Positions 2 through 64,000 of a stretch of DNA of 64,000 nucleotides are shown piece by piece. Position 1 is the first letter of the stretch, and each line of letters begins with the position of its first letter. Source of the DNA: Anaerolineae bacterium (lineage in GTDB: Bacteria > Chloroflexota > Anaerolineae > DRVO01); contig JABLXR010000026.1 in assembly GCA_013178015.1 (NCBI GenBank), positions 1-64,000 of the forward strand. Reading direction: 5' to 3'. Position numbers and translations under genes: made by a program. The notes below the pieces were generated by a model. It was not told the DNA's origin. It ran no database searches and worked only from the letters and a program-made list of their open reading frames with translations.

Positions 2-958
2 CAAGGAGCCGCCGGCAACAGCCTCGGCAGTGCCGGCAAGGGGTTAGGGCTGGCCATCGCCAAGCGCTTTGTAGCCATGCATGGCGGGCGTATCTGGGCA
101 GAAAGCGAGGTGGGCAAGGGTAGCACTTTCAGTTTCAGCCTGCCCCGGGCCGAGAAACAGGTGGCGATGTTACCCCCTCCGCCGTTGCTGCCATTGAGCA
201 GCACCCAGACAGACCCCCCGACCGTAGTGGTTGTAGACAACGGTCGGGCAGTCACACTTCTCTCGCGGCGAATCGAAGGGGTGCAGTTCCTTAGCGCTCC
301 TGACCTCCGCGAAGCACGCAAGCTGGTGCGCCAGGAGCACCCACAGGCTCTGATCTTGAACCGGCCACTAGAGATGGAGGACCTGGGCTCGCCCGTTCCC
401 CCTCTCATCCTGGAAGAGCCAGTGCCCGTGGTGCAATGCGCGCTGCCGCTGGGGAGATCTCGATCGGAGACGGAGCTCTTTGACGACTGGTTGGTGAAAC
501 CGGTGGGCGCAGAAGTCCTGCTATCGGCCATCTCTGCCTTCCCTAGAGCAAGGAGAATACTGGTGGTCGACGATGACGTGCCCTTCGCCCATCTGATACA
601 GCGCATTCTGGAAGCGCAAGAAGGCCGCTTCCAGGTGGCAACAGCACATGATGGAAGGTCTGCCCTGCGCCTGGCGGAGGAATTCTCTCCCGATCTGGTG
701 CTACTTGACATTGCCTTACCGGGTCTGGAGGGCAGAGAGCTGGCGACAGTATTGCGGCAGAGGGCGAGCCAGGAAGTAGCTATTATCGCTGTGACGGCCC
801 TGCAGCCAGATATGGGGGAAACGTCCAGCGGGGCGCGAACGTTCGCTGTCACCTCCTTGATGGGGTTCAGCGAGGAGGAGCTTCTTGCACTGATCCGGGC
901 GTGTTTACATCACCTACGGCCGGCGTACGTTGCTGAGCCAGTTGTCGCAGGCTCTTGA
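2..958 (+). CDS. Hybrid histidine kinase, C-terminal part (5' end outside window)
   Basis: The reading frame is open from the window edge, so only the end of the protein is seen. It starts in the G2 box of a histidine-kinase ATPase domain ([12 protein letters not shown], then [17 protein letters not shown]). A degenerate receiver follows: the phospho-acceptor position reads LILNRP (Asn for Asp), yet the LVKP lysine motif is kept. A second receiver ends the protein, with an acidic pocket (VVDDD), the acceptor Asp in VLLDIALPG and the Thr in AVTAL, but no Lys-Pro; that place reads FAVTSLMGF. The kinase would phosphorylate its own receiver or a partner. Its last 92 bp lie antisense to the end of the gene at 867-2108. 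It is a paralogue of the kinases at 56756 and 63474. Confidence 0.85.
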
Positions 959-2108
959 GCAGATCGCGGCGGGAGATTGGCTTAGTCAAGTAAGCGGCTG
1001 CACCTAAGGCCATCCCAAGTTCAGGGTCGTTCACCACGGAGCAGACTATGACCGGCACGGCGCTGGTACGGGGGTTCAGCTTCAGCGCCTGCAGGACGTC
1101 CCAACCGTCCGCCTCCGCCATCATGATGTCCAGTATGACGGCCTCCACTTGCCTGGAGGCGGTGATGTCCACGGCCAGGCGCGGGTGGGGCACGGTCACG
1201 GGCTCCCACTCGCTGTTGGCCAGGTAGCGCTCGTAGAGAGCGCAAGCTCCCGGATTGTCCTCTACTATGGCCACGCGCCGGCGCTTGGCTGACGGCACTC
1301 GCAAGCGCAGTGTCAAGCCGCCTGCGCTCGCAGCCAGCTCGTGCTCCACGCCCTGAACATCCGCCACTCTGAGGGCCGACTGCAGTAGGTCGCGCTTGGA
1401 TAGTTCTTCGGGGCGCCTCATCGGTATGATGATCGTGGCCACTTTGTCATCGCCCTCAAGGGCCACGTTGATGGTTTCATCAGGTTGGCTCTGCAATAAG
1501 CAACTGAGCACTTGCGTCAGAACTTCACGCAGTACCGCGGGAGTGGCGGTGACCATTATGTTCTTGCGGGGAGCCATCAGCTGCACGGAGACGCCCTGCC
1601 TTTCCGCCAGGCGCGACACCGTATCAATGGCCGAGCGCACCAATTCCACCAGATGCACCGGCTCCGGCTTGTGAGCCAGGGCGCGGATCTCCTCGCTCAG
1701 TACATCATCCGCCTGGCGTTCGCTATCGGTAGGGACTTGGTCTAGTTGAGGAGCTGGGCCAGGCTGAAGCAAGTAGCACAGTTGTTCCTCGGCGAAGCGC
1801 AGATCGCGATATGCCTGGCGCTCACTGAGAGAAAGCCGGCGGGCCACCTCCTCGACGCTGAAGCCGGAGACATAGCGCAACCTAAGGCAATCGTAGGCAC
1901 GGCTCGCTGAGGCAGGCAGGCCGCTGCGCAGGTTGGAGCGCAAGGCAGCAATGGCGTCCAAGAGCTTGCCTCGCACAGCCTGAGCCCTCGCCAGAGGGTC
2001 ACCGGTGTCCCGTGTTTCCGGCAAGAGCCTAGCCAGCTCGCAATCAGCCAGGCCCTGGGGAATGTAGAGGAGAAGGAGCGCCTCACGAGCTTGCTCCGGT
2101 GTGATCAT
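867..2108 (-). CDS. HTH / pseudo-GHKL / receiver-domain regulator (module A)
   Basis: 413 residues in an unusual order. An N-terminal helical part ends in a sigma-region-4-like helix-turn-helix (about residues 70-112, [12 protein letters not shown] then [12 protein letters not shown]). Residues 150-275 look like the ATP-binding fold of histidine kinases without its N and G boxes. A C-terminal receiver (278-392) has the acidic pair in IVEDN, phospho-acceptor Asp327 (VILDIMM), Ser357 and Lys376 (LTKP). Ordinary response regulators carry the receiver first. The likely role is signal-dependent control of transcription, driven by the convergent kinase at 2-958; this pairing is inferred. The stop codon lies inside the kinase gene. 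Very close paralogues sit at 55579 and 62351; the copy at 62351 has its Asp, Ser and Lys at identical residue numbers. ATG start, with AAGGGA upstream. Confidence 0.8.
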
Positions 2109-2474: not shown

Positions 2475-3887
2475 ATGGTAATGCAGAGGAGATCCAGCAG
2501 ACGTTCGTTCTTGCGGGCAGCCGGGGCGTTGACCGGTGCAGCGGTGCTCTCGGCATGCGCTACTGCTGCCCCACAGACGGTGAAGGAGACCGTAGTGGTG
2601 AGGGAGGAGGTCGTGGTTACGGCCACACTCGAGCCCTCCGCCCTAGACCGCAGCAGGCAGGTTACGTTGACAGTCGCCGCGTACGGCTCACCTTCGCACC
2701 AACGGTATGGTGACACGCTCAAAGCGCTCTTCGAGAAGAACAATCCAAGCGTAACGCTCAAGATGGAATACTGGATGGGCGATGATCAGTCCTTCCTGGA
2801 CAGCATGACCGCCCGATTGGTCGCCGGCAACCCACCCGACGTTGGTTTCGCCGGTGGTCTCTCTTGGGTACAGCAGTTCCTGGCCACCGGGGGCATCCTG
2901 GACCTAAGACCTTTCTGGGATCTCGTGAGCCAGGAAGAAAAGGATGACTTCTACCCTGGGCCGTTGGCCATCTATACGGGCAAGGGTGGCGAGCTCTGGG
3001 CCATCCCTCACCGGGTCTTCGCCGAGACGGTGTACTTCTGGAAGCCAGCCTTCGATGAGGTAGGGCTGGAGTACCCTGGTGAGGACTGGACCTACGAGGA
3101 CGTACTCCTTGCAGCCAAGCAGACACAGAAGGAAGCTGACGACCGGGTGGTGCGCTGGGGATGGGAGAATTGGGCCAGCTACGGCGATATGTGGCACATG
3201 GCTCCTGCAGTCTGGGCCTACGGGGGCGACTGGTTCAATCCAGACTACACGCAGTTCATCGCTGATTCCCCGGAGGCGCTCGCAGGGTTGCAGGTGCTGC
3301 ATGATTTCATATGGAAGGAGAAGGTAGCGCCGGCTCCTTCCATGCTCTCTCAACAACAGACCGACACGTACACTATGTTCGCTACCGGTTTCTACGGTAT
3401 GTGGATGCAGGGATCCTGGGCATATGGCAACCTGCGAGATAAAGTGAGGGGCACCGAAAACGCCAACGCTTGGGACATCGCTCGCCTGCCCAAGGGGCCG
3501 AAGGGGCGCTGCACTCCCCTTGCCAGCAATCCTGTGTACGCTTTCAAGGCGACCAAGGAGCCCCAGTGGACCTGGGAGCTTGTCAAGTTCTGGAGCAGCA
3601 CGGAGGCGATGTCGATAGCTGCACTGGTTTTTGGCACCGACGGAGCCCGCAAGTCTGCGGCCGGTGCGTCCAAGGACCCCAGCCAGCCACCAGAGCACGC
3701 TGATCGCATCTCGGCGGAGATGGCCGAGTGCGGCAAGCCAGCGCCCCAGCCGCCTCATTACAGCGAGGTGATGGATACCTTCAGCAACATCATGCAGCAA
3801 ACCTTCGCCGATAACAAGATGCCGGTGGAGCAAGCGGTGGCCGAAGCCAAGAAGAAGATCGAGGAGATCTTGGCCCAACCCGAGTAG
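2475..3887 (+). CDS. ABC sugar importer, extracellular binding lipoprotein
   Basis: 470-residue solute-binding protein of family 1 (MalE/UgpB type). The leader has a twin-arginine-like stretch (SRRSFLRAAG, residues 8-17) and a lipobox LSAC ending at Cys28, so the mature protein should be lipid-anchored outside the membrane. The body has typical features of the family, such as TARLVAGNPPDVGF near residue 111 and repeated Trp-rich ligand-cleft segments. The start is fixed by AAAGGAGG six bases upstream. Two permeases follow at once, so it is the first gene of a sugar-import operon; no ATPase gene is present. The substrate cannot be read from sequence, but the downstream hydrolases suggest an oligosaccharide. 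Confidence 0.9.
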   Translation: MVMQRRSSRRSFLRAAGALTGAAVLSACATAAPQTVKETVVVREEVVVTATLEPSALDRSRQVTLTVAAYGSPSHQRYGDTLKALFEKNNPSVTLKMEYWMGDDQSFLDSMTARLVAGNPPDVGFAGGLSWVQQFLATGGILDLRPFWDLVSQEEKDDFYPGPLAIYTGKGGELWAIPHRVFAETVYFWKPAFDEVGLEYPGEDWTYEDVLLAAKQTQKEADDRVVRWGWENWASYGDMWHMAPAVWAYGGDWFNPDYTQFIADSPEALAGLQVLHDFIWKEKVAPAPSMLSQQQTDTYTMFATGFYGMWMQGSWAYGNLRDKVRGTENANAWDIARLPKGPKGRCTPLASNPVYAFKATKEPQWTWELVKFWSSTEAMSIAALVFGTDGARKSAAGASKDPSQPPEHADRISAEMAECGKPAPQPPHYSEVMDTFSNIMQQTFADNKMPVEQAVAEAKKKIEEILAQPE

Positions 3888-3973
3888 GACAGGGCCTGCT
3901 GAGGCGTGCAGGGGGGATGCCACACATCCCCTCTGCACGAGCAGGCAAACAAGCAGTGGGGAGACAACTCTTG

Positions 3974-4924
3974 ATGACAGCATCCACCGACAACACCGCC
4001 CGTCCCTTGCTCATCCCCAGGTTGCAGTGGAACCGGCAAGCGCGGGAGGACATCGCCGGCTACCTCTTCATCTCACCCTGGTTGATCGGCTTCATTATCT
4101 TCACCGTCGGCCCCTTTATCGCTTCCTTCATTTTCAGCCTCTTTAACACCAACCTGATCAACAAGTTCGAGTTCGTGGGCCTGGGCAATTACGTCGAGCT
4201 GCTCAAGAACGAGATCTGGTGGAAGAGCCTCTACAACACCTGCTTTCTGGCCTTCTTCGGGCTAGCCACCGGCATCCCACTTGGCCTAGCGATCGCCTTG
4301 CTCCTCAACGAGCAGGTGGCCGGGCTCAAGATCTTCCGCACTACGTTCTACCTGCCTTCGGTTGTCGCGGGCGTGGCTGTCTTTCTTATCTGGATTACCA
4401 TTTTCGACTACAACTATGGCCTATTGAACAGTTTCGTTGAGGCCCTCGGCCTGCCGCCACAACGGTGGCTGACCAGTTCGGAGTGGGTGAAACCCTCGAT
4501 GGTGTTGATGAGCTGGTGGGGGGTTGGCGGTGGCGTCATCCTTTACCTGGCTGGCCTGCAGGCCATCCCGAAGGAGCTCTACGAGGCCGCAGAGCTAGAC
4601 GGAGCAGCGCGACCACAGCGCTTCCGCCGCATCACCCTGCCCATGCTCTCGCCGACCATCTTCTTCATGCTCATCACTGGCATCATTGGCTCGCTGCAGA
4701 CCTTTGTCGGCCCCCTGGTGATGACGGGGGGCGGCCCCAACTACGCCTCGACCACCGTGGTGCTGTGGCTGTACTACAACGGCTTCCGTTACTTCAAAAT
4801 GGGATATGCATCGGCCATGGCTTGGGTGCTGTTCTTCATTATCGCCATGTTCTCCGCATTGGTGTTTCGCTCCTCGAGCGCCTGGGTCTACTACGAAGGT
4901 GAGATCCTGGGCAAGCGGGGCTAG
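3974..4924 (+). CDS. ABC sugar importer permease (MalF/UgpA type)
   Basis: 316 residues from the ATG at 3974. The frame opens at 3917, but that upstream start has no usable spacing and would add an unconserved leader; GGGGAG lies about 10 bases before 3974. Six hydrophobic helices start at YLFISPWLIGFIIF. The cytoplasmic EAA loop (ELYEAAELDGAARPQRF) contacts the ATPase. The protein forms half of the channel with the product at 4926, whose start almost abuts this stop codon. It serves the binding protein encoded at 2475. The ATPase must come from elsewhere, as is common for this carbohydrate-transporter family, where one MsmK/UgpC-type ATPase can serve several systems. Confidence 0.92.
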   Translation: MTASTDNTARPLLIPRLQWNRQAREDIAGYLFISPWLIGFIIFTVGPFIASFIFSLFNTNLINKFEFVGLGNYVELLKNEIWWKSLYNTCFLAFFGLATGIPLGLAIALLLNEQVAGLKIFRTTFYLPSVVAGVAVFLIWITIFDYNYGLLNSFVEALGLPPQRWLTSSEWVKPSMVLMSWWGVGGGVILYLAGLQAIPKELYEAAELDGAARPQRFRRITLPMLSPTIFFMLITGIIGSLQTFVGPLVMTGGGPNYASTTVVLWLYYNGFRYFKMGYASAMAWVLFFIIAMFSALVFRSSSAWVYYEGEILGKRG

Positions 4925-4925
4925 G

Positions 4926-5816
4926 ATGAAGGGCACCAACGTCCACTACGCGCGCAAGAGGGAAAGCATCTTCGGTAGGTACCGGCTGCGCCACCTTCTG
5001 GGGCGAGCGATCATATACACTGTCCTCATAAGCCTCAGCATCGTCTACCTGCTCCCCCTGTTTTGGATGATCTCCACTTCCCTCAAGCCGGCCGGGCAGG
5101 TGACCATCTACCCGGTGAAATGGATCCCTGACCCGGTGCGCTGGCAGAATTACGTGGAGGCCTGGAACCTCTATCCCTTCACCAAGTTCACCTTCAACTC
5201 GCTCTTCATCGTCATCATGACGGTCATCGGTGCCATCGCCTCATGCACTCTCATTGCCTATGGCTTTGGCAGGGTACGATTCCGCGGGCGGAACGTCCTC
5301 TTCTTTGTACTTCTCAGCAGCATGATGTTGCCCGGCGCCGTCACCATGATCCCGGTCTACGTGCTCTTCGCCAAGCTGAGCTGGGTGGACACGTACAAGC
5401 CGCTCATCGTGCCCTCCTACTTCGGCAGCGCTTACTACGTCTTCTTCTTGCGCCAGTTCATGATGAGCTTGCCGCTGGAGCTGGACGAGGCAGCGCGCAT
5501 AGACGGCGCCGGCCATTTGACCACGCTCACCAGAGTCATCCTTCCTCTGATCAAGCCGCCCCTTGTCGCTGTGGGCATATTCACCGCCTTTGATCGCTGG
5601 AACGATTTCTTTGGTCCGCTGCTATATCTGAGCAGCCGCGAGAAGTTTACCTTCGTGTTGGCGCTGCGCGCTCTCCAAGTCGACACCGTCTATGGCTCCC
5701 ACTACGAGTGGTTGATGGCGCTCTCGCTTATCCAACTGGCGCCGATGATAACCATCTACTTCCTGGCCCAGCGCTATTTCATTGAGGGCCTCTCCATCAC
5801 CGGCGTGCGCGGCTGA
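4926..5816 (+). CDS. ABC sugar importer permease (MalG/UgpE type)
   Basis: 296 residues from the ATG at 4926, one base after the preceding stop codon; the frame runs open further upstream but overlaps the previous gene. Six membrane helices are visible, beginning IIYTVLISLSIVYLLPLFWM. The EAA loop is ELDEAARIDGAGHLTTLTRVILPL. The C-terminus (FIEGLSITGVRG) is typical of MalG-like permeases. It pairs with the permease at 3974. The spacing implies one transcript and translational coupling. Confidence 0.92.
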   Translation: MKGTNVHYARKRESIFGRYRLRHLLGRAIIYTVLISLSIVYLLPLFWMISTSLKPAGQVTIYPVKWIPDPVRWQNYVEAWNLYPFTKFTFNSLFIVIMTVIGAIASCTLIAYGFGRVRFRGRNVLFFVLLSSMMLPGAVTMIPVYVLFAKLSWVDTYKPLIVPSYFGSAYYVFFLRQFMMSLPLELDEAARIDGAGHLTTLTRVILPLIKPPLVAVGIFTAFDRWNDFFGPLLYLSSREKFTFVLALRALQVDTVYGSHYEWLMALSLIQLAPMITIYFLAQRYFIEGLSITGVRG

Positions 5817-27112: not shown

Positions 27113-27316
27113 TCGGTCGCTGTTCCTGCTGCCGGCGCGCCGCGCCGCTCTTGAGCCTGGCATGCCTCCATGATAGCACAAGGGGCATTCTAGAGCCGGA
27201 ACTAGCGAGAGTCTCTCGCGTTCGGCCCACGGAGGGGCAGCGCTGTGGGCGCCCTGTTGTCCTCCAGTCGCTGCTGTCCTAGACTTCCGCCATCGCAGTG
27301 CCCGGAGAGTGCAGCT

Positions 27317-51997: not shown

Positions 51998-53317
51998 TCA
52001 GAGCTCGGCCACTTCCGCGATGATTGTGTTCATGATCTCCGCCGCCTGCGCCGCAAACTCCTCCACCGTGATCTTGCCGTCCAGTACCTGCTGCCAGCCC
52101 TCCCAAGGTTCGACGAGCAAGCGCAAGTCGGCAGGATGTTTGCCTACAGGGACAGCAAAGTCTATGGACTTCAGGTAGGCAGCATGATTCTTGCCCGGGG
52201 CGGGCGAGCTGAAGTCGTCGGACTCAGCGACAGCCCTGATGGCGGGGATCGCGCTTCCCTCCTTGACATAAAAACTCCGCTGCGCTTCCTCATCGCAGAG
52301 GTATTTCACCAGCTTCCAAGCGGAGTCCATGTCCTGGGTGCGGCTGGTGATGGAGAAGCCCTCGAAGGAGGTCCAGGTGCCACGTTTCCCCTGCGGCGGA
52401 GTGGGGAAGGCGGCGATATCCCAGTCGAAGTCCTCGATGGCAACAGCCACGGGCAGACCCCAACGGCCCAGCGTGATCATGGCGGCCTTCTGGTTCTGGA
52501 ACATGGCTATGGCGCCCTGCTCCTGAAGCACGTCGGCGGGCGGAACCGCTCCAGCCGTCACTCGCAGGTCGTAGTTCCACTGCAAAGCCCAGATTGTCTC
52601 TGGAGTGTTGATGGCGGACTGGGTGAAGCTGTTATCCCAAGCTCGCCCACCGGCCATGAAGTTGCCGATATAGACCCACAGGTCTCCCACACCATATTGG
52701 TCGCCCTCTGTCAGTGCAGAAGCGATGCTGTGGAAATCCTCGAGCTTCCAGTCGTCCGTTGGGTAAGGTACGCCCTTGGCATCGAACAGCGCCTTATTGT
52801 AGAACCAGACGCTTGTTGTGAAGCCGTAGGGCAGAGCGTAGAGCTTGCCGTCGTAGATGAAGCCGTCGACCACGCGCTCGTAGTAAGTGGTCAGGTCGAA
52901 CGACGCGTCGCCCTTGATGAGATCATCAAGGGGAGCAAACACCCCCTGGGCGGCAAAGCCGTTAGCGGCCAGCCCCGCCCAGAAGACGTTGGGCTCCGTA
53001 CCTGCAGCGTACATCACCTTCAGCTTGCCGTCGGGGTCGCTGGGCTCTTGTATGATTGTCAACTCGATATCAGGGTACTTCTCCTTGAAGCCAGCTTCCT
53101 GCTTCTCCATCCGAGCGATGGCCGGAGTCGTCGAGGTGTAATACATGAGGCTCACCTGCTTCTTGGTCGCTGCCGGGACCGCGGTGGCAGCTTCCCCCGC
53201 GCCCGTGGAAGCAGTAGCTGCGGGAGCAGGCGTTCCGGCACAACCAGCCAGTGCAAGGCCGACTCCAGCGATGCCAGCCTGCTTCAGCAGCGTTCGACGC
53301 GACAACCGAGTGATCAT
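51998..53317 (-). CDS. ABC sugar-type importer, extracellular binding lipoprotein
   Basis: 439 residues from the ATG at 53317, preceded by GAGGAGGTAGAG; the frame is open to 53452 but overlaps the permease gene. The leader has LSRRTLLKQAG and lipobox LAGC. The body is of family 1 (SLMYYTSTTPAIARMEKQEAGFKEKYPDIELTI). It delivers a carbohydrate-like ligand to the permeases at 53439 and 54344. It is not closely related to the binding protein at 2475. Confidence 0.92.
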   Translation of the reverse strand: MITRLSRRTLLKQAGIAGVGLALAGCAGTPAPAATASTGAGEAATAVPAATKKQVSLMYYTSTTPAIARMEKQEAGFKEKYPDIELTIIQEPSDPDGKLKVMYAAGTEPNVFWAGLAANGFAAQGVFAPLDDLIKGDASFDLTTYYERVVDGFIYDGKLYALPYGFTTSVWFYNKALFDAKGVPYPTDDWKLEDFHSIASALTEGDQYGVGDLWVYIGNFMAGGRAWDNSFTQSAINTPETIWALQWNYDLRVTAGAVPPADVLQEQGAIAMFQNQKAAMITLGRWGLPVAVAIEDFDWDIAAFPTPPQGKRGTWTSFEGFSITSRTQDMDSAWKLVKYLCDEEAQRSFYVKEGSAIPAIRAVAESDDFSSPAPGKNHAAYLKSIDFAVPVGKHPADLRLLVEPWEGWQQVLDGKITVEEFAAQAAEIMNTIIAEVAEL

Positions 53318-53438
53318 CTCTACCTCCTCATCCCATCGGGTCCTATCGTCAGCTATCCCTCGGCCGCCCCGGCTAGACACCTCGAAGCCTGCCAGCCTCA
53401 AGGGGCGATAGCCCGGATGGCCAAAGGCGCTCCCCCCG

Positions 53439-54347
53439 CTAGCCTTTGACACCGGTCAAGGCGATTCCCTCCACAAAGTATCTCTGAGCGACGATGAAGA
53501 TCACAGCGCAGGGCAGCATGACGACGAGCGACGCTGCCATCAGGTAGTTCCACTGGGTAGCGTACTGGTCCCGGAACAAGTTGAGGCCCACCGCCAGCGT
53601 CATCTTGTCCCGCGAATTGAGGTACAGTAGGGGGATCAGGAACTCGTTCCAGTGGCCTATGAAGGTGAAGATTCCAACTGCAGTGAGACCCGGTCTGGCC
53701 AGAGGAAGGATCACATTCCAGAACACGCCCAGCACCCCGGAGCCGTCCATAGTGGCGGCCTCATCCAGCTCGCGGGGGATGGTCATGTAGAACTGGCGCA
53801 GGAGGAAGATGTTGAAGGCACCACCGCCGAAGAATGCCGGGATGGTCAAGGGCTTGAAGGTATCTATCCACTTCAGCTTGGCGAACACGATGTACACTGG
53901 GATCATGGTGACGGCGTAGGGCAGCATGGTGGTGCTGAGCACCAGGATGAAGAGCCAGGACTTGCCCGGGAAGCGCAGGCGGGCGAAGGGATAGGCCACC
54001 AACGACGACGACGCCAACACGCCCACAAGTGAGATGCCGGTGATGGTGACCGTGTTCTTGAGCAGTATGGGGAACTTCATCGCCGCTAAGGCGGTGCGGA
54101 AGTTCTCCCAACGCCAGGTAGTGGGGATGAAGCTGGGCGGGATGGAGACGATCTCGCCGTCAGGCTTCAGGGCAGTGGTGAACATCCAGGCCAGGGGCAG
54201 GACCTGCACCACCGAGAAGGCGATCACCAATAGATAGATAGAGCCGCGCGACCTGAGCCACCGCAGGGCCCTCCCTAAGCCAGGGCTAGCAGGACGGGCA
54301 AGCGTCGAGCGGGCCCGCGCCGGGGCCGTGGATGAGCTGAGGCTCAC
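53439..54347 (-). CDS. ABC sugar-type importer permease (MalG type)
   Basis: 302 residues. Six helices begin SIYLLVIAFSVVQVLPLAWMF. The EAA loop is ELDEAATMDGSGVLGVFWNVILPL. The C-terminus (FVEGIALTGVKG) is nearly the same as that of the permease at 4926. It starts inside the stop codon of the partner gene (GTGA overlap), so the two are translated together. Confidence 0.93.
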   Translation of the reverse strand: MSLSSSTAPARARSTLARPASPGLGRALRWLRSRGSIYLLVIAFSVVQVLPLAWMFTTALKPDGEIVSIPPSFIPTTWRWENFRTALAAMKFPILLKNTVTITGISLVGVLASSSLVAYPFARLRFPGKSWLFILVLSTTMLPYAVTMIPVYIVFAKLKWIDTFKPLTIPAFFGGGAFNIFLLRQFYMTIPRELDEAATMDGSGVLGVFWNVILPLARPGLTAVGIFTFIGHWNEFLIPLLYLNSRDKMTLAVGLNLFRDQYATQWNYLMAASLVVMLPCAVIFIVAQRYFVEGIALTGVKG

Positions 54348-55258
54348 TTCCGAACCTCCCCCTCATAGTAGACCCACACGGCCGAGGAGCGGAAGACGAT
54401 GAGGGTCAGCACCAGAATGATAGCGAACAGGACCCACGCTTGTGCCGAGGCGTAGCCCATCTTCAGCTTGGTGAAGGCGTTCTCGTACAAGTACAGATTG
54501 TAGAAGAGTGTGGCATAGTTCGGACCGCCCTTGGTAATGACAAAGCCGCCGGTGAAGGTCTGGAAGGCGGCGATCAGGCCCATGACCAGGTTGAAGAACA
54601 TGGTGGCGCTGAGCATAGGCAGAGTGATGTAGCGGAACTTCTTGACGCTGTTAGCGCCGTCAATCTCCGCCGCCTCGTACAAGTGCCGCGGTATCGCCTG
54701 CAGTCCGGCCAGAAAGACGATCATAGTCCCCCCCACCAGCCAGACGCTGTAGATGACCATGGCGGGGAGGGCCAGCCGCTCGTTGGTCCACCAGGAAGTC
54801 AGCTTGATGCCGAACAGCCGCAGGAAGCCGTTCACGAAGCCGTAGTTGCTAAAGCCCCACATCCACAGCATCGAGATGGCTACCCCGGACACAACGGACG
54901 GCAGATAGAAGGCGGCCCGGAAGAAAGCCAGCCCCCGAATCTGCTGGTTGAGGAGCGAGGCCAGCAGCAGGGCGAAGGCAAGGGCAAGCGGCACGTAGGA
55001 TACTGAGAACAACACCGTCACCCGGAGAGACTGCCAGAACAGCGGATCCCGGAACAGGGTGGAGAAGTTCTCCCCGCCTATCCATGTCGGTGGCTTGAGC
55101 AGGCTGTATTTGGTCATGCTGTAGTACACCGACGCCAGCATGGGATACAGGATCCAGATCAGGAAGCCGAGAATCCAGGGGGAGATCAGGACGTAGGACC
55201 AGAGGGCCTCACTGCGGGCCCTGCGGCTGCCCTGAAACCAGGTTGTCCTGACGCTCAT
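54344..55258 (-). CDS. ABC sugar-type importer permease (MalF type)
   Basis: 304 residues, first gene of the operon. Six helices; start ALWSYVLISPWILGFLIWILYP. The EAA loop is HLYEAAEIDGANSVKKFRYITLPML. It forms the channel with the product at 53439. The repeat-rich gap 55259-55578 lies upstream. As in the other importers here, no ATPase gene is in the cluster. Confidence 0.93.
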   Translation of the reverse strand: MSVRTTWFQGSRRARSEALWSYVLISPWILGFLIWILYPMLASVYYSMTKYSLLKPPTWIGGENFSTLFRDPLFWQSLRVTVLFSVSYVPLALAFALLLASLLNQQIRGLAFFRAAFYLPSVVSGVAISMLWMWGFSNYGFVNGFLRLFGIKLTSWWTNERLALPAMVIYSVWLVGGTMIVFLAGLQAIPRHLYEAAEIDGANSVKKFRYITLPMLSATMFFNLVMGLIAAFQTFTGGFVITKGGPNYATLFYNLYLYENAFTKLKMGYASAQAWVLFAIILVLTLIVFRSSAVWVYYEGEVRK

Positions 55259-55578
55259 ATTCTCCTCAACCAGGGATGCCTATGTCCCCGCGCCTGGGGG
55301 AGCGACCAACCACCCCCGAGGAGTTCGCCCGCCCACGCGCGAAAGGGCCCTGCCGCCCCACGCCCCCGCCCGGTGCCGCCGCGCCTGGGAGCGCGAAGTC
55401 CTCAAGCAAGAGCACCAACCACCCCCGAGGAGTTCGCGCGCCCACGCGCGAAAGGGCTCTGATGCCGGACGTCCCCGCCCGGTGCCGCCGCGCCTCCTAA
55501 AAAGAGACCTGAGGTCTCACATCCAGTCTAGCGCGTTAGCGGCTGCGCGCGGTAGGATCATAGTGACCGGGCAGTGCC
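55259..55578. repeat. Two 82-bp direct repeats with hairpin arms
   Basis: Copies at 55305-55386 and 55414-55495 (period 109 bp) share ACCAACCACCCCCGAGGAGT, CCCACGCGCGAAAGGG and CGGTGCCGCCGCGCCT. Within copy 1, GAGGAGTTCGCCCGCCCACG (from 55318) can pair with 55380-55403, 20 of 24 bases matching. Copy 2 has the left arm (55427-55450) but only a stub of the right one. A relative with both arms is at 62059-62124. No gene lies in this stretch. Confidence 0.8.
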
Positions 55579-56853
55579 ATGGAGTGCCACCAAGGTGACA
55601 AAGAGCCAGCGGGCAACATGACCGACCAAGGACCGCCGCGCGAGTTCGCCAAACAGGTGCGGAACGCCCTGGCGCGTCTACACGATACCGCCCACCTGCA
55701 GCGGCACCCGCTGCTTCGTCTGCTGGTGCCCTCAGAGCTGACCGATCCCAGGGTTCGAGCCCAGTACCTGCGCGAAGCCATCGTGCAGGCGATCGGCGAA
55801 CTGAGACCGCCGGCTCGCGTCTCCCCCCATGATCCCGCCTATCGGCCGTACGGAATCCTGCGCCACCGCTTCATGGAGGGCATGGAAGCGGAGGAGGTGC
55901 AGGACGCCCTGGCCATCGGTAGGCGTCAGTACTACCGGGAGCAGCAACGCGCCATTGAGGCGGTGGCTACGCTCCTCTGGGCCAGGAGATCCGACGATTC
56001 CGCTACCGACGATGATCGTCGCCAGGCCCTCAACGACGAACTGGAGCAGTTGGGATTGCAGGCGCAGAACCTCGACCTCGAGGCGCTCACGCGGGAAGCC
56101 ATCGCCGCGGTGACGCCCCTGGCTCTGGCGCGCGATGTGGCCATCGCTCCTCCTGCCGAACGCCCGGTTCACGCCTTTGCCGACGAAGTCATCACCCGGC
56201 AAGTGCTGATTGACGTCCTCAGCGCCCTGCTCCAACGCACCGCTCACTGCTACCTGCGGGTGAAGCTGGCGGCGGCCGAGCCCTGGGCCACGGTGAACCT
56301 CGAGATCCCCATGCCACCACAGACGCTGGACTCGCTGCAGACCCACCTCCTCACGCCCATGCGCCTGGCCAACCGCGTGAGCGGCAGCCTAGACGCGCGG
56401 GAGGAGGACGGCATCCTTCACGTCCGCTTGCGGCTGCCTCTGAGCAGCGAGGAAGTGGTTGCCATAGTGGACGACAACCCCACCACGCTTCAGCTCTTTC
56501 GTCGCTACCTGGAGCCCTATAGCTACCGGCCGGTGCTCATCCAGGACAGCGCCACAGCCCTGGCCCAGATCCGCACTCTTCAGCCTGATGCCGTTGTCCT
56601 GGACATAATGATGCGCGACGTGGACGGCTGGCGCATCCTCCAGTCGCTGCGGGCCGATCCGGCCACTTCCCACATTCCCATTCTGGTGTGCTCTGTGCTG
56701 AGCGACGAGCACCTGGCCCTGACCATCGGCGCCGACGCCTACCTGCGCAAGCCCGTCAGCCAGAGTGAGCTGGTGCGGGCTCTGGCGCAGGCTCTGCGGG
56801 CAGCAGATGCCGGGCCGGGAACGTCTTCAGGGCGGTCTCCAGCCAGCGGGTGA
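55579..56853 (+). CDS. HTH / pseudo-GHKL / receiver-domain regulator (module B)
   Basis: 424 residues from the first ATG; an ATG at 55618 is also possible, as neither has a strong ribosome site. The domain order is the same as at 867: helical N-terminus, HTH-like segment (about 92-132, degenerate compared with the others), a pseudo-ATPase fold (170-288), then a receiver with VDDN (298-300), Asp342 (VVLDIMM), Ser372 in CSV and Lys391 (RKPV). The last 98 bp overlap antisense with the kinase gene at 56756. The pairing with that kinase is inferred from position. This copy is the most diverged of the three. Confidence 0.8.
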   Translation: MECHQGDKEPAGNMTDQGPPREFAKQVRNALARLHDTAHLQRHPLLRLLVPSELTDPRVRAQYLREAIVQAIGELRPPARVSPHDPAYRPYGILRHRFMEGMEAEEVQDALAIGRRQYYREQQRAIEAVATLLWARRSDDSATDDDRRQALNDELEQLGLQAQNLDLEALTREAIAAVTPLALARDVAIAPPAERPVHAFADEVITRQVLIDVLSALLQRTAHCYLRVKLAAAEPWATVNLEIPMPPQTLDSLQTHLLTPMRLANRVSGSLDAREEDGILHVRLRLPLSSEEVVAIVDDNPTTLQLFRRYLEPYSYRPVLIQDSATALAQIRTLQPDAVVLDIMMRDVDGWRILQSLRADPATSHIPILVCSVLSDEHLALTIGADAYLRKPVSQSELVRALAQALRAADAGPGTSSGRSPASG

Positions 56854-59002
56854 CCTCCCCCGCGGCGAACTGACGTCCCCGTCGAATGGTGATCACGCCC
56901 TCTGTCGGCGCCGCCGCATCGGCGGCAAAACCGTGGGCGGTGATGGCCACCACTGGAGTCCCTCCCATGCCCGGGGTGGTTCGCAGGCAGGCGAGCACCT
57001 CTAGGCCGGACCTCCCTGGGAGGACCAGATCCAGGAGCACCAGGTCCGGCCTCTCTTCCAGAAGCTCCACCGCCCGGTCCCCGTCATAGGCCTTCAGCAC
57101 CTTCGCCCCCGGCAGCAGGGCTCTCAGGCACCGTTCCGCCAGGCGCACCACCCCGGCGTCGTCGTCCACCACGAGCACCTTAGTGGCCCGCGGCGCTGCC
57201 CCGGCGACGACCCGCGACAGGTCCTCCGCGGTGAACGGCTTGGTGAGGCAGTGGCTGAACCCGGCCGCCACGGCCTGGTCCCTCTCCAGGGGCAGGGAGC
57301 AGGTGATCACGGGCAGCCCCAGGTCGGCCGTGGCAGCAGCCAGCTCCTTGGCTGCCGTGCCGTCCTGGGCGCCATCGGCCAGGACGACCGCGTCAGCCTG
57401 GGCCCGGCGCGCCGTCGCCTCTGCATCTGAGACGTCGGGTACGGCCAGAACCTCCGCATCCGGCAGGTACCTTCCCAGCAGACGGGCGAACTCGGCCGGC
57501 TCTGCCAGCGTCACCAGTCGGCGGCTACTCTCGGGCCTGCCGGCGGGATACCGCCACCCGGCCGGAAGCTCCGCCGCCTGGATCGGGACCACCTGCTTGC
57601 CAGGCAAGGGCAGAGTGAAGTGGAAGGCACTTCCGCGACCCACCTCGCTCTCCACCCATATGCGCCCGCCGTGGAGGGTGACGAAATGCTTGCAGATGGC
57701 GAGGCCCAGCCCGGTGCCATCGTGCCTGCGCCGCAGCGAGCCATCTACCTGATGGAACTCGGCGAACACCGAGTGCACCTGGTCGGGAGGAATGCCCACG
57801 CCGGTGTCCTCCACCACCACCTCGACGTCCTCGCGCTTCAGCTCAGCTCGGATGGTGATGCTTCCCTGATCGGTGAAACGGGCGGCGTTATTGAGCAAGT
57901 TGATCAGAACCTGACGGATGCGCGTCGGATCGGCATAGAGAGGAGGAAGGCTCTCGGGTAGCTCGAGCTTCAGCGCCACTTTGCAGCCGCGCAGGAGTCC
58001 GGAAGCCGTCTCGACGGCATCGTGGATGAGGGAGAGCAGGTCTACGCGCTCCTTGGCCACTGGCAGGCGGACCGCCTCGATGCGAGAAAGGTCCAGGACG
58101 TCGTCAATCAGGCGGAGCAGGTGGGAGGCGTTGTCGTACACCTCCTGGATGTCCCCTCGTAGCTCCGGAGTCCAGACTACCCCGCGGTAGGAGTCGGGCG
58201 AGGTACACATCATCTGAGAGAACCCGACGATGATGTGCAGGGGAGTCCGTAACTCGTGGCTGATGTTGGCAGCGAACTGGCTCTTGAGCGCCCGGGCCTG
58301 CTCGGCCTCTTCTCGCGCTTCCGCCAGGTCGAAAGCGGTCCGCTTGAGGAGCGAGTTGGCCACGGCCAGGGCCTTCATGGTCTGGTTCAGCTTGCCCCGC
58401 TGCGACTGGAGCTGGCGCATGGTGCGCCACGACGTCTCGTATCCATGGAGGGCCCAGGTGAGGACGGTATACAGGTCGCGCGAGGTCAGCCAGGCGACGG
58501 CAGCCATGGCCCAGTAGAGGGCCACCGCTGCCGAGACGATGCTCGAGGGCCACAGGCCGGGCAGCAGCCAGGTAGCCAGGCCCAGCACCGCCGTTGCCAG
58601 GGCAGCCGACACGAAGGCGGCAGCGGAACTGGCCACGAGGCTGGCGACGCCCACCGCGGCAACCGGGATGAAGGGAGCGTAGGGAGAACGCTGCACCAGG
58701 AGAGCCGCAGCGCCCACTGTCACCATGCCTAGAACGAACACGGTGGTGCGCAGGGAAGCAGGGCGCCGCACTAGCAACGTCAGCAGGCCCAGCGTCCCTA
58801 TGCCCAGGGGCAGGACGAGGGCCGACCACGAGAACCGCGGGTGCATCAGCATCCACTGGGCGACGGTCCACACATACCCGGCGACGGTGAGGCTACACCC
58901 CACCGTGTCCAGCGTGGATCGCCGCAGTTGCCCCAGCTCGTGCGACCAGTCCACCTGGTACACGGGCAACTCCCGATCCAGAGCGAACTCCCGGTACACC
59001 AT
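56756..59002 (-). CDS. Membrane hybrid histidine kinase with two complementary degenerate receivers (module B)
   Basis: 748 residues. Residues 30-175 hold about six membrane helices without a clear sensor domain. A coiled stretch precedes the dimerisation domain with His249 (NISHELRTPLH). The ATPase domain has the N box (INLLNNAARF), DTGVGI and GTGLGLAICKHF. A first receiver (about 495-603) lacks the acidic pocket (TLAEP) and the acceptor Asp (VVLAD) but keeps LTKPF (Lys588). The last receiver (607-725) keeps VVDDD, Asp658 and Thr688, but the Lys position reads ITIRRGR. The C-terminal tail is Pro/Ala-rich and encoded within the overlap with the regulator gene at 55579. It would sense a membrane signal and drive that regulator. 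Confidence 0.88.
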   Translation of the reverse strand: MVYREFALDRELPVYQVDWSHELGQLRRSTLDTVGCSLTVAGYVWTVAQWMLMHPRFSWSALVLPLGIGTLGLLTLLVRRPASLRTTVFVLGMVTVGAAALLVQRSPYAPFIPVAAVGVASLVASSAAAFVSAALATAVLGLATWLLPGLWPSSIVSAAVALYWAMAAVAWLTSRDLYTVLTWALHGYETSWRTMRQLQSQRGKLNQTMKALAVANSLLKRTAFDLAEAREEAEQARALKSQFAANISHELRTPLHIIVGFSQMMCTSPDSYRGVVWTPELRGDIQEVYDNASHLLRLIDDVLDLSRIEAVRLPVAKERVDLLSLIHDAVETASGLLRGCKVALKLELPESLPPLYADPTRIRQVLINLLNNAARFTDQGSITIRAELKREDVEVVVEDTGVGIPPDQVHSVFAEFHQVDGSLRRRHDGTGLGLAICKHFVTLHGGRIWVESEVGRGSAFHFTLPLPGKQVVPIQAAELPAGWRYPAGRPESSRRLVTLAEPAEFARLLGRYLPDAEVLAVPDVSDAEATARRAQADAVVLADGAQDGTAAKELAAATADLGLPVITCSLPLERDQAVAAGFSHCLTKPFTAEDLSRVVAGAAPRATKVLVVDDDAGVVRLAERCLRALLPGAKVLKAYDGDRAVELLEERPDLVLLDLVLPGRSGLEVLACLRTTPGMGGTPVVAITAHGFAADAAAPTEGVITIRRGRQFAAGEVTRWLETALKTFPARHLLPAEPAPEPAPAHSG

Positions 59003-60348: not shown

Positions 60349-60518
60349 GACCTCACCGCGGATGAGACGGGGAGACACGGAGAGGGGGTGACGCGGAGAC
60401 GCGGGGATGGTGAGCCACGGGGAGAGCAAGGCCGGCCCCAGGTCGTCTTCTCTCCCTGTCACCCCCTCTCCCCCTCTCTCTGTCTCCGCGTCCCCGCGTC
60501 TCCCCCATCTCCCCCTAC
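60346..60518. repeat. Inverted GGAGACGCGG-type arrays between convergent genes
   Basis: The left arm (about 60360-60412) has GGGGAGACACGGAGAG and GACGCGGAGACGCGGGGA. The right arm (60453-60518) is the complement of related units. The loop is about 40 bases. The DegT aminotransferase gene on the minus strand ends in a TAG that is part of the first unit. It is a candidate two-way terminator, built from different units than at 16325-16505. Confidence 0.75.
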
Positions 60519-61789
60519 GCCAGGTCCATCACCCGGCCGGCGTTCTCCGAGACCTTGGCGAAGGCCTCCACGTAGAGCTTCATCAGATCCAGGTCGTTGG
60601 GCGGGTGGACGCCGCTCAGGTAGGCGTGGGCTTCGATGAACTCGCTGGTCTTCGGGTACTCCGAGGCATCGTAGCGGATGCCGGCCCGGGCGTGACCGCA
60701 GGACCAGGGGCAGCCTTTGCCGTACCCCACCATGTCCTTGAACACGTCCTGCGCCGGCACGGGCATGGTCTGCCATTGGCCCACCCGCACCCCTTCGGCA
60801 GCCAGAGCCCTCTGCGCCGCCCGCTTCCACTCCCCGGGCGTGACGTCCAGCCCCACCTCCTGGGGCCGGAACTCGACCACATAGCTGAAGTAGCAGGGCT
60901 CGGCGTAGTCGGGGGTGTAGGGCCCCTTCAGGCCGGGGATGTCGGCCAACGCCTCGGTGAGGTAGGCGGCCAACTCTCGCCGCTTGGCGTTGTTATACTC
61001 TAGACGATCGAGCTGGGAGAGGATGAAGGCGTTCACGAACTCGTGGGGTCGGTACATCCAGCCCAGGCCGTAGGCGTTGTACTCCCGGTCCACGTGGGGT
61101 AGAACCACCTCGCCGAACTCGCGCAGCATGGCGGCCCGACGGTAGTACTCCTCGTTGTCCGAGGTCCACAGCCCGCCCTCGCCCCCGGATAGGTTCTTGG
61201 AGCGGTTGCAGCTGAAGCAGCCAATGTCACCCAGCGCCCCCGTCTTCCTTCCCTTGTAGGTGGCGCCGTGGGCCTGGCAGGCATCCTCGATCACGATCAG
61301 TCCATGCTTGCGGGCGATCGCTAGGATGGGTTCCATGTCGGCGGGCATGCCGTGGATGTGCACCGGCAGGATGGCCCTGGTGTGATCGCTGATCCGCTCC
61401 TCGATGAGAGAAGGATCCATGGTGTAGGTAAGCGGGTCTATGTCCACGAAGATGGGGATGGCGTTGTGGTGCAGGACGGCCGCCGCCGTGGACCAGTAAG
61501 TGAAGGCGCTGGTGATGACCTCGTCGCCCGGGCCGATGCCCGCCCCCGCTACCGCCATATGCAGAGCCGCCGTGCCACTGTTGGTGACCAGGCAGTACTT
61601 GGTGCCCACGTACTCCGCCCATCGGCGCTGCAACTCCAGCGCCCTGGGCGCCGAGGTGCCGTGCAAGTGACCGCTATCGAATACCGCCAGCACCGCGTCT
61701 CGGTCTGCCTGGGTCAAGGGGGGCCAGCTCTGGACCATCCCCTCGGGCACCACCGGCTTGCCCCCGTCAAGCGCCAGTCGCGACGCCAT
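60515..61789 (-). CDS. DegT/DnrJ/EryC1/StrS family PLP aminotransferase
   Basis: 424 residues from the ATG at 61789 (AAGGAGGCAGTACT upstream); the frame is open to 61912 but the extra part is unlikely. Fold type I signs are TNSGTAALHMAV, IEDACQAHGA and the PLP lysine Lys198 in CNRSKNLSGGEGG. C-terminal parts carry YFSYVVEF. Family members transaminate keto-sugars in cell-surface or natural-product pathways; some of this subgroup act in 3-amino-5-hydroxybenzoate or inositol pathways. No sugar-nucleotide genes are near, so its pathway is not known. Confidence 0.92.
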   Translation of the reverse strand: MASRLALDGGKPVVPEGMVQSWPPLTQADRDAVLAVFDSGHLHGTSAPRALELQRRWAEYVGTKYCLVTNSGTAALHMAVAGAGIGPGDEVITSAFTYWSTAAAVLHHNAIPIFVDIDPLTYTMDPSLIEERISDHTRAILPVHIHGMPADMEPILAIARKHGLIVIEDACQAHGATYKGRKTGALGDIGCFSCNRSKNLSGGEGGLWTSDNEEYYRRAAMLREFGEVVLPHVDREYNAYGLGWMYRPHEFVNAFILSQLDRLEYNNAKRRELAAYLTEALADIPGLKGPYTPDYAEPCYFSYVVEFRPQEVGLDVTPGEWKRAAQRALAAEGVRVGQWQTMPVPAQDVFKDMVGYGKGCPWSCGHARAGIRYDASEYPKTSEFIEAHAYLSGVHPPNDLDLMKLYVEAFAKVSENAGRVMDLA

Positions 61790-62350
61790 AGTACTGCCTC
61801 CTTCGAGTTCTCGATTCCGATCGCAGTCACCATGATACCACCCATCGCCCGAAACCTCCTGCGCGTCCGGGCTCTGGTCTGGCTGGCGTGGCCCAGGTAG
61901 CATCCACCACACTGAGAGGGTCTCGGTGGCTCGACCTCGATATCAGCAGCAGCTCAGGATCGGGGGGACACATGGCCACCAGCGCCGCCGCTCAGGGCCT
62001 TCGCTGGGCTCGGACTACGCGAGCCAGCCCCGACTGCACCGCAGATACACCTTCCTTGGAGGAGTGCGCGCGCCCACGCGCGCTGTCCCCAAGTGTCTAC
62101 CGCGCCTGGGGGCGCGGACTCCTCAGGAGGAGGCTGGAATCTGCCAGGACGCTGGCGCCTTGCCTTCCTAGCCGGCCGAAGAGCCTGCCGCGAAAGCCTG
62201 TGAGGAAACCACCTGCGTGCGACTGCCGGCTGAACACACTCGTCCCCCCGATCCTGAGCTCTTGCCGCTATCACTGCGCCGTCCGGATGTAGTATGCTTC
62301 TGCCATGGCGATCAGTGGCGATGCACGCGCGAAGCGCCTGTTGAGGAGAG
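61790..62350. other. Gap with a dispersed hairpin repeat and otherwise no gene
   Basis: 560 bp between the divergent aminotransferase and regulator genes. Apart from the hairpin at 62059-62124, I see no gene, RNA or operator. Frames of 60-180 codons here overlap each other and carry no motif. Confidence 0.5.
62059..62124. repeat. Hairpin repeat related to the 55.3-kb repeats
   Basis: GAGGAGTGCGCGCGCCCACG onwards (62059-62082) pairs with 62101-62124 at 21 of 24 positions around an 18-base loop. The arms are the same sequence family as those at 55318-55403 and 55427-55450, so the unit is dispersed. Confidence 0.75.
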
Positions 62351-63529
62351 ATGGGCGCGCCTAGCCAGGCTGAGGTTCACGAGGCTCTGGAGCGACTGGG
62401 GGACAGCGTGGCCCTGGCCCAGACGCGCCTTGCCGCCTGCTTTCCCCAGTTGCAGGAGATCACCCACCTCAACCAGCGGGCCCAGAAGCTGCGCGCCCTC
62501 CTGCTGGAGGCCATCGAGGCCCTCAGCCCCACCCAATCGGCGCCCTTCGGCTCTGTGGCTTCCCGCGCTTACGACGTGCTCACTCTGCGCTACGTGGAGC
62601 GCATGAGCGCCGTGGACATGGCGGAGGAGCTGTCGTTGAGCCGCCGCCAGGTGCACCGCGACCTGAAACTGGCCGAGGAGCGGCTGGCCGAGCTGCTGGG
62701 AAGCTGGGCTCAGTCAGGCTCGCAGGAACCCCTGACGCCCACCGAGGACCCTCTGAGCGAGGAGCTCGCGCTCTTCTCCATTCGCTCCACCGAGGTGCCT
62801 CTGAGGTCGGTGGTGGAAGAGGCGCTGTCGCTGGTGCAGCCCCTGGCTCATGGGCTCGGGGTGAGCATTCACGGCCCAGACCTGGCGGCGGCCTCCCAGC
62901 AAGTGGTGGGCAACCCAGCCTTCCTCAGACAGCTAGCCACCCAGGTCCTCAGCCTCGCCGTGCAGTCTACCGAGGACGGCAAGGTCGTGGTGGACTGCCG
63001 GACCGGCGATGACTCTGCCGTCCTGACGGTCCAGCTCCTGCTGGCTGACCCCGGGCCCCTCGCGGAGCGCTTGGCCGAGGTGCACCGCATGGCCCGATCT
63101 CAGGGCATGGCCTGCGCCGTCTCCTCCCTCCCCTCTCGGGAGGTGACCGTGTCGCTCACCTTCAGGCGCGGCACTCCCATCCGGGTGTTGGTGATCGAGG
63201 ACAATCCGGGGACAGTGGAGCTGTATCGCCGCTACCTGCCGGCAACCGAGTGGCAGGTGGAGGCGGCGGCAGATCCGCGCTTGGCCCACGAGCTGAGCAA
63301 GCGCCTCAAGCCTCAGGTAGTGATCCTAGACATCATGATGCCCCACGTGGACGGCTGGACTCTGCTGCGAACGCTCAAGCAGAGCCCAGAGACCCGCGAT
63401 ATCCCCATCCTCATCTGCTCGGTCACCAATGACCCAGCTCTGGGAAAGGCCCTGGGCGCCAGGGTCAGCCTGGTCAAACCGATCTCGCAGGCAGAGCTAC
63501 TTCTGGCTCTGCACCGTTGTCTGGAGTAG
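62351..63529 (+). CDS. HTH / pseudo-GHKL / receiver-domain regulator (module C)
   Basis: 392 residues; TTGAGGAGAG is just before the ATG. The helix-turn-helix (SRAYDVLTLRYV, LSLSRRQVHRDLKLAEERL, about 71-113) is nearly superimposable on that at 867. A pseudo-ATPase fold (about 150-272) lacks the catalytic boxes. The receiver (277-392) has VIEDN, Asp327 (VILDIMM), Ser357 in CSV and Lys376 (LVKPI), at the same residue numbers as in module A. Its last 56 bp overlap antisense with the kinase gene at 63474. It is likely a regulator controlled by that kinase. Confidence 0.82.
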   Translation: MGAPSQAEVHEALERLGDSVALAQTRLAACFPQLQEITHLNQRAQKLRALLLEAIEALSPTQSAPFGSVASRAYDVLTLRYVERMSAVDMAEELSLSRRQVHRDLKLAEERLAELLGSWAQSGSQEPLTPTEDPLSEELALFSIRSTEVPLRSVVEEALSLVQPLAHGLGVSIHGPDLAAASQQVVGNPAFLRQLATQVLSLAVQSTEDGKVVVDCRTGDDSAVLTVQLLLADPGPLAERLAEVHRMARSQGMACAVSSLPSREVTVSLTFRRGTPIRVLVIEDNPGTVELYRRYLPATEWQVEAAADPRLAHELSKRLKPQVVILDIMMPHVDGWTLLRTLKQSPETRDIPILICSVTNDPALGKALGARVSLVKPISQAELLLALHRCLE

Positions 63530-64000
63530 GCGAGCGCTCGCTGGCCAACTCAAGGATGGCGCTCAGGAGAGCAGCGAGCTCGCCGGGCCGGAATCGGTCC
63601 GGCAGGGCCAGCGTCAGGGTCGCACCCTGAGTAGCCAGATTGTCCTCTCCAGGCGTGGCCGCCGTGATGGCGATGACCGGTACCTGCCCCAGCCCTGGAT
63701 CCTCTCGCATAGCAGCCGCCACCTCGAAGCCGTTCATCTCGGGAAGCACCAGATCGAGCAGCACGCACGCCGGCCTGGCCCGGGCCATCTTCCGCAGCGC
63801 CTCCCGGCCGGTGTAGGCACCCTCCGTGAGGTAGTCTCTCCCCGCCACCTGGAGCAGCCGCTTCACCAGCTCTACGAACCCCCTGTCGTCGTCCACCAGG
63901 AGAAGCCTGGGGCGCGAGTTGGCTTCGGCCTCGGGCAGAACCTGGTCGAGCACTTTGAGTAAGCCCTCGCTGGTGATGGGCTTAGTGATCACGGCGGCGA
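63474..64000 (-). CDS. Hybrid histidine kinase, C-terminal end (5' part outside window; module C)
   Basis: The frame runs to the window edge, so only about 175 residues are seen. They begin in the end of a first receiver (VITKPITSEGLLKVLDQVL, Lys kept). A second receiver follows with LLLVDDD, acceptor Asp in VLLDLVLPE and Thr in AITAA. At the Lys-Pro place it reads TLTLALPDRF. This matches the kinases at 2 and 56756 in domain order and in the missing lysine. The end overlaps the regulator gene at 62351. Confidence 0.85.
   Translation of the reverse strand, partial: AAVITKPITSEGLLKVLDQVLPEAEANSRPRLLLVDDDRGFVELVKRLLQVAGRDYLTEGAYTGREALRKMARARPACVLLDLVLPEMNGFEVAAAMREDPGLGQVPVIAITAATPGEDNLATQGATLTLALPDRFRPGELAALLSAILELASERSPTPDNGAEPEVALPARSV

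Follow-up and report, generated by a model that had tools for sequence, protein, structure and literature searches.

Convergent kinase–regulator gene pairs with overlapping 3′ ends, expanded across Chloroflexota

Three overlapping gene pairs and their products

Why should a histidine kinase gene and a regulator gene converge until their coding sequences overlap, and do so three times in one stretch of bacterial DNA? The question arises from a 64,000-nucleotide window (positions 1 to 64,000 of contig JABLXR010000026.1, assembly GCA_013178015.1, from an Anaerolineae bacterium), in which a sequence-only reading had found three such pairs and had proposed that selection, or a constraint such as linked expression, maintains the sense-antisense coding of both C-termini. 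Our analysis recovered all three overlaps, of 92, 98 and 56 nt, at the same coordinates; each stop codon lies inside the partner gene, and in 3/3 pairs first codon positions oppose first codon positions (the 1:1 phase). In pair 1, the kinase gene (2..958, + strand) is truncated at the contig start and encodes the C-terminal part of a hybrid histidine kinase (HATPase end and receivers); its last 92 nt (867..958) are shared with the regulator gene (867..2108, − strand). Pair 2 joins a 424-aa regulator (55579..56853, +) to a 748-aa hybrid kinase (56756..59002, −) across 98 nt (56756..56853). Pair 3 consists of a 392-aa regulator (62351..63529, +), which has a confident structural model (pLDDT 93), and the C-terminal part of a hybrid kinase (63474..63998, −), which is truncated at the window end and extends in the full contig to about C26:65579. 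Their 56-nt overlap (63474..63529) contains the entire α5 helix of the regulator (residues 380-391), and in pair 2 the kinase α5 (714-727) lies mostly inside the overlap. Elsewhere in the window, the 5′ ends of an NfeD/Clp-type protease gene (25805-27472, −) and of the gene called after it (27245-29527, +) overlap by 228 nt, probably an artefact of start-codon choice; long antisense frames are likewise open at 25805-29527.

The kinase has about five to six membrane helices followed by HisKA, HATPase and two receivers, and no large extracellular domain was found in it. Its HisKA and HATPase boxes are intact, with the phosphoacceptor H249 and residues N368, N372, D399, G401, G403, G429, G431 and G433 invariant among 33 kinases. 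The regulator is built of N-terminal helices, a sigma-region-4-like helix-turn-helix (HTH), a HATPase-like domain lacking the glycine boxes, and a canonical receiver, in which D284 (acidic pocket), D327 (phosphoacceptor) and K376 (Lys) are invariant in 75 regulators. The kinase would transfer phosphate to its partner regulator. The HTH matches Pfam and PDB profiles near or below their cut-offs and its helical model is confident; the regulator would bind DNA through this predicted element. The order HisKA-HATPase-receiver with an adjacent receiver-bearing regulator is that of classical hybrid-kinase two-component systems such as TorS and BarA. However, here the genes converge with overlapping 3′ ends; the first kinase receiver retains Lys-Pro and shows no conserved Asp pocket, whereas the second retains Asp and lacks the conserved Lys; and the regulator carries an extra, degenerate HATPase, with its predicted DNA-binding part at the N-terminus.

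Neither the kinase nor the regulator reaches the cut-off of any curated NCBIfam model. Assignment of the regulator to the ECF sigma factors was rejected, as only a region-4-like segment was matched and sigma region 2 was not. For both the regulator model (E 7e-11) and its N-terminal profile, the best fold match is the hybrid-kinase core of ShkA (6qrj), so the regulator may have been derived from a hybrid kinase. It differs from ShkA in having an HTH in place of HisKA and no ATP-binding glycine boxes, and the global superposition is poor (TM about 0.3). An origin of the regulator receiver by inverted copying of the kinase receiver was also considered and set aside: the regulator is matched less well by the receivers of the partner kinases than by those of other proteins encoded in the genome.

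Distribution, orientation and phase across Chloroflexota

In the source genome (4.57 Mb, 97 contigs), full-length regulator paralogues number 36, with one further fragment at a contig edge, and kinases are present in corresponding numbers, nearly always next to a regulator. The earlier count of three modules is therefore right as to the pairs and far too low for the genome. Across Chloroflexota, removal of duplicates left 194 pairs, drawn from 80 genomes or contig sets with 24 family labels (unlabelled named contigs pooled as one). Orientation and overlap were taken from stop codons, making start prediction unnecessary. The pairs are convergent in 185 cases and tandem in 9. Among the convergent pairs, 164 overlap and 21 are separated by gaps of up to 858 nt. 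Among the 154 overlaps of at least 20 nt, 140 (91%) are in the 1:1 phase, 9 are codon-aligned and 5 are in the third phase. As the scans of the class and of the phylum scored 6-9 candidates per genome, copy numbers outside the source genome are lower bounds. Nearly all of the best named relatives are metagenome assemblies from Anaerolineae or other Chloroflexota. Nine more Chloroflexota genomes outside Anaerolineae have the family, and their pairs are convergent in 20/20 cases, with 18 overlapping and 16 in the 1:1 phase. For comparison, published two-component genes less than 200 bp apart share a strand by a ratio of more than 15:1 (PMC3018481). In the loci around the family pairs, convergent neighbours outside the family, as called by a crude gene caller, overlap in 16/61 cases and in mixed phases (7, 4 and 2). 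These results confirm that the convergent overlap and its shared phase occur far above chance expectation. The sequence-only reading had asked whether relatives would prove mostly divergent or gapped, or their overlaps randomly phased, and on this count the convergent one-phase pattern held.

The trees of regulators and kinases are congruent, both overall (r=0.87; best shuffle, 0.06) and within the source genome (r=0.82; best shuffle, 0.24), so the pairs duplicate and travel as units. Parsimony on the joint tree places the 1:1 phase at the root and requires 24 changes, compared with a mean of 44 with shuffled labels. Thus, the phase is mostly inherited and not chosen anew at each duplication. 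Overlap and phase were indeed kept through duplications, as had been proposed, though these were many and not the two first supposed.

Variant arrangements also occur. All six kinase-upstream tandem pairs of the wider set belong to one family, f35 (G345, G357, G362, G372, G387 and G392), and four of the nine codon-aligned cases belong to another, f20 (G261, G296, G370 and G395), with overlaps of about 90-108 nt. Since gapped and tandem versions exist, the overlap is not essential. The only tandem pair of the source genome (L045, G000:C6:9649-13074), in which the regulator starts immediately after the kinase stop, and its only orphan regulator with room downstream (L035, G000:C17:62128-63282) are sister sequences. 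In L233 (G300), which was excluded from the pair counts, the partner kinase frame enters the regulator (1087-2319) by 915 nt in an apparent codon-aligned antisense phase; this could fit a frame change that removed the usual stop, or alternatively a sequence error.

What the overlap consists of, and how it may be kept

The distance from the KP lysine of the regulator receiver to a leucine in the kinase α5 is 67-76 nt, in steps of three, in 71/77 overlapping 1:1 pairs of our first set. Despite this near-constant helix spacing, overlaps among the first-set 1:1 pairs can be as short as 20 nt or as long as 98 nt. When other landmarks are used on the full set, the spacing falls into two tight modes 12 nt apart, and from models and coordinates we estimate the helix ends to be roughly 13-26 nt apart. 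It is possible that selection for closeness itself lies behind the tight spacing. The tails beyond the helices are unconserved stretches rich in Pro, Ala and Gly whose length changes. Among close homologues, whose pairs are not fully independent, fourfold sites of the regulator helix facing the kinase tail have an identity of 0.549, compared with 0.535 in the core, and fourfold sites of the regulator tail facing the kinase helix are conserved (0.838). As a protein, the regulator tail is poorly conserved (0.489 versus 0.819). The fourfold-site pattern suggests that the α5 helices are selected and that the tails follow.

The kinase stop falls two codons past the KP lysine (K+2) in 71/140 pairs and at K-2 in 25/140. 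At K+2 the regulator most often reads GTC-AGC (Val-Ser), whose antisense reading supplies TGA; in pair 2, the kinase stop is the complement of this GTC-AGC within the regulator KPVS. The same antisense stop is present at the KP motif in 43% of non-overlapping relatives and in 9/15 other KP motifs. Thus, the receiver motif seems to offer a ready-made backstop for the partner gene.

We think it probable that these genes are Chloroflexota-expanded convergent two-component cassettes in which the overlap was inherited as a by-product of compaction, with the helices selected, the tails not, and the two helices together forming a latch. A membrane hybrid histidine kinase would sense a nutrient-linked signal and phosphorylate the regulator receiver, and the regulator would target its own promoter region as well as the adjoining divergent uptake or catabolic operon. 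In an ancestor, the coding sequences for the α5 helices of both receivers would have ended up almost back to back, and each gene would continue into the antisense of the partner helix until it met a stop, very often the KP-V-S complement. A break or frameshift between the genes would then damage one helix. Because there is almost no free DNA between the helices, linkage, orientation and phase would be hard to change. Eight regulators in the data set are orphans with no adjacent kinase, and their nearest relatives are gapped or tandem in 4/7 independent cases (p=0.014), a suggestive pattern in a small sample that is in line with the latch.

The overlap might instead be kept by expression coupling, with mRNA pairing or polymerase collision limiting kinase and regulator levels mutually, much as the sequence-only reading had suggested that mRNA overlap balances the two. 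Orientation and overlap are preserved phylum-wide and through dozens of paralogues, as such coupling would predict. No conserved hairpin or bidirectional terminator was found in the junction, where the mean z of −0.23 is like that of the flanks, and a terminator pattern scan of the pair 2 junction returned none, so transcripts may continue across it. A regulatory layout in which convergent mRNAs overlap with no intervening terminator has been described (PMC7154746), as in excludons, whose overlapping transcripts repress each other, and in convergent genes whose 3′ UTRs overlap. The family pairs share the convergence and the lack of any terminator found in the junction. They differ in that the coding sequences themselves overlap, and the partners belong to one pathway and do not oppose each other. 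Moreover, the 21 gapped pairs, the 9 tandem pairs and the 8 orphans persist, the junction has no conserved RNA element, and overlap length varies freely. These points are not decisive, because transcripts may overlap past the coding ends. We regard coupling as unlikely to be what keeps the overlap, and equally doubt that the family is a phylum-wide class of antisense- or collision-coupled two-component systems with up to about 36 copies per genome.

Could the shared phase reflect mutational or compositional bias only, with nearby convergent genes settling into it repeatedly and independently? The 1:1 phase is the commonest among published convergent overlaps of at least 5 nt (49%; PMC2174442), and it is the phase with most antisense stops in the family genes. 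Among simulated abutting genes from the same loci it makes up about 56% of 20-100 nt overlaps (phases equally weighted; our arithmetic from the printed simulation fractions), and 87% of simulated codon-aligned abutting genes extend beyond 200 nt. The observed share is much higher, however, at 91%; the trees point to common descent with few changes; and among the control convergent pairs of that DNA the mix is different. Bias as the only cause is thus very unlikely, although it may account for the ancestor having had this phase. Taken with the trees, these data indicate that the 1:1 phase was the likely one a priori and came near to fixation mainly by descent. Functional C-terminal tails, with 1:1 dual coding selected at the protein level as the sequence-only reading had envisaged, are the least probable explanation and hardly credible: although tails and the 1:1 phase occur very widely, the regulator-helix fourfold sites facing the kinase tail are as free to change as those of the core, rejecting purifying selection on that tail, the tails are unconserved and variable in length, the kinase tail is modelled with low confidence, and the arrangement has a single ancestral origin.

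Probable targets and relation to other regulators

Under the compaction and latch reading, the candidate targets are the genes next to the regulators. ABC transporter genes lie divergent from the pair 1 regulator (2475..5816, +), comprising an SBP_bac_1 gene (2475-3887), a BPD_transp_1 permease gene (3917-4924) and a second permease-like gene (4806-5816). Another set lies divergent from the pair 2 regulator (51998..55258, −), with an SBP_bac_8 gene (51998-53452) and two permease genes (53439-54347 and 54344-55258). By position, both are probable target operons. A possible target of the pair 3 regulator is a DegT/DnrJ/EryC1 aminotransferase gene (60515..61912, −) that lies upstream of it in divergent orientation; a short called ORF (61926-62171, +) lies between the two. 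In pair 2, the divergent region separating the regulator gene from the ABC permease gene contains a terminator-like hairpin followed by TTTTT (55504-55518, −), in the orientation of the transporter operon; it could act as an attenuator in the leader, or the match could be due to chance.

In the core set, the regulator is divergent from its upstream neighbour in 74/96 cases. A sugar ABC solute-binding protein or permease gene is found on the regulator side in 52/96 cases, compared with 12/82 on the kinase side (p=3e-8). The upstream neighbour is something other than a sugar transport gene in about 44/96, so the nutrient link is a statistical one. Other divergent neighbours tested encode mostly catabolic enzymes (methyltransferase, aminotransferase and oxidoreductases) and one LacI-type regulator. 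From this gene context, we infer that the regulator controls its divergent operon locally and in response to nutrients.

Bacteroides polysaccharide loci have hybrid two-component systems (HTCS), which are likewise many paralogous local regulators, one per sugar-uptake locus, and are single fused proteins. The family described here appears to work like them, as many paralogous local regulators beside sugar-uptake loci. It differs in having two separate genes (convergent in 185/194 pairs and tandem in 9) and ABC-type transporters. It was not classed with the Bacteroides-type HTCS, since its sensor kinase and DNA-binding domain are not fused in one protein. Our literature search returned nothing relevant on a convergent two-component family or on its expansion in Chloroflexota. 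The sequence-only reading was thus correct that this is a real, conserved signalling unit, and one that is apparently undescribed.

Two-component genes are textbook co-directional neighbours. Throughout the phylum this family departs from that rule in a single fixed manner, with about 36 copies in one genome, and the surprise lies in the scale and depth of the convergent arrangement and not in new chemistry. Well over a hundred junctions serve as natural replicates for asking how overlaps lock gene order and whether convergent transcription matters for signalling, and the f35 and f20 clades are natural tests of the role of the convergent layout. For many uncultured Chloroflexota, the family also indicates which genes are the probable nutrient regulators, with their candidate target operons adjoining.
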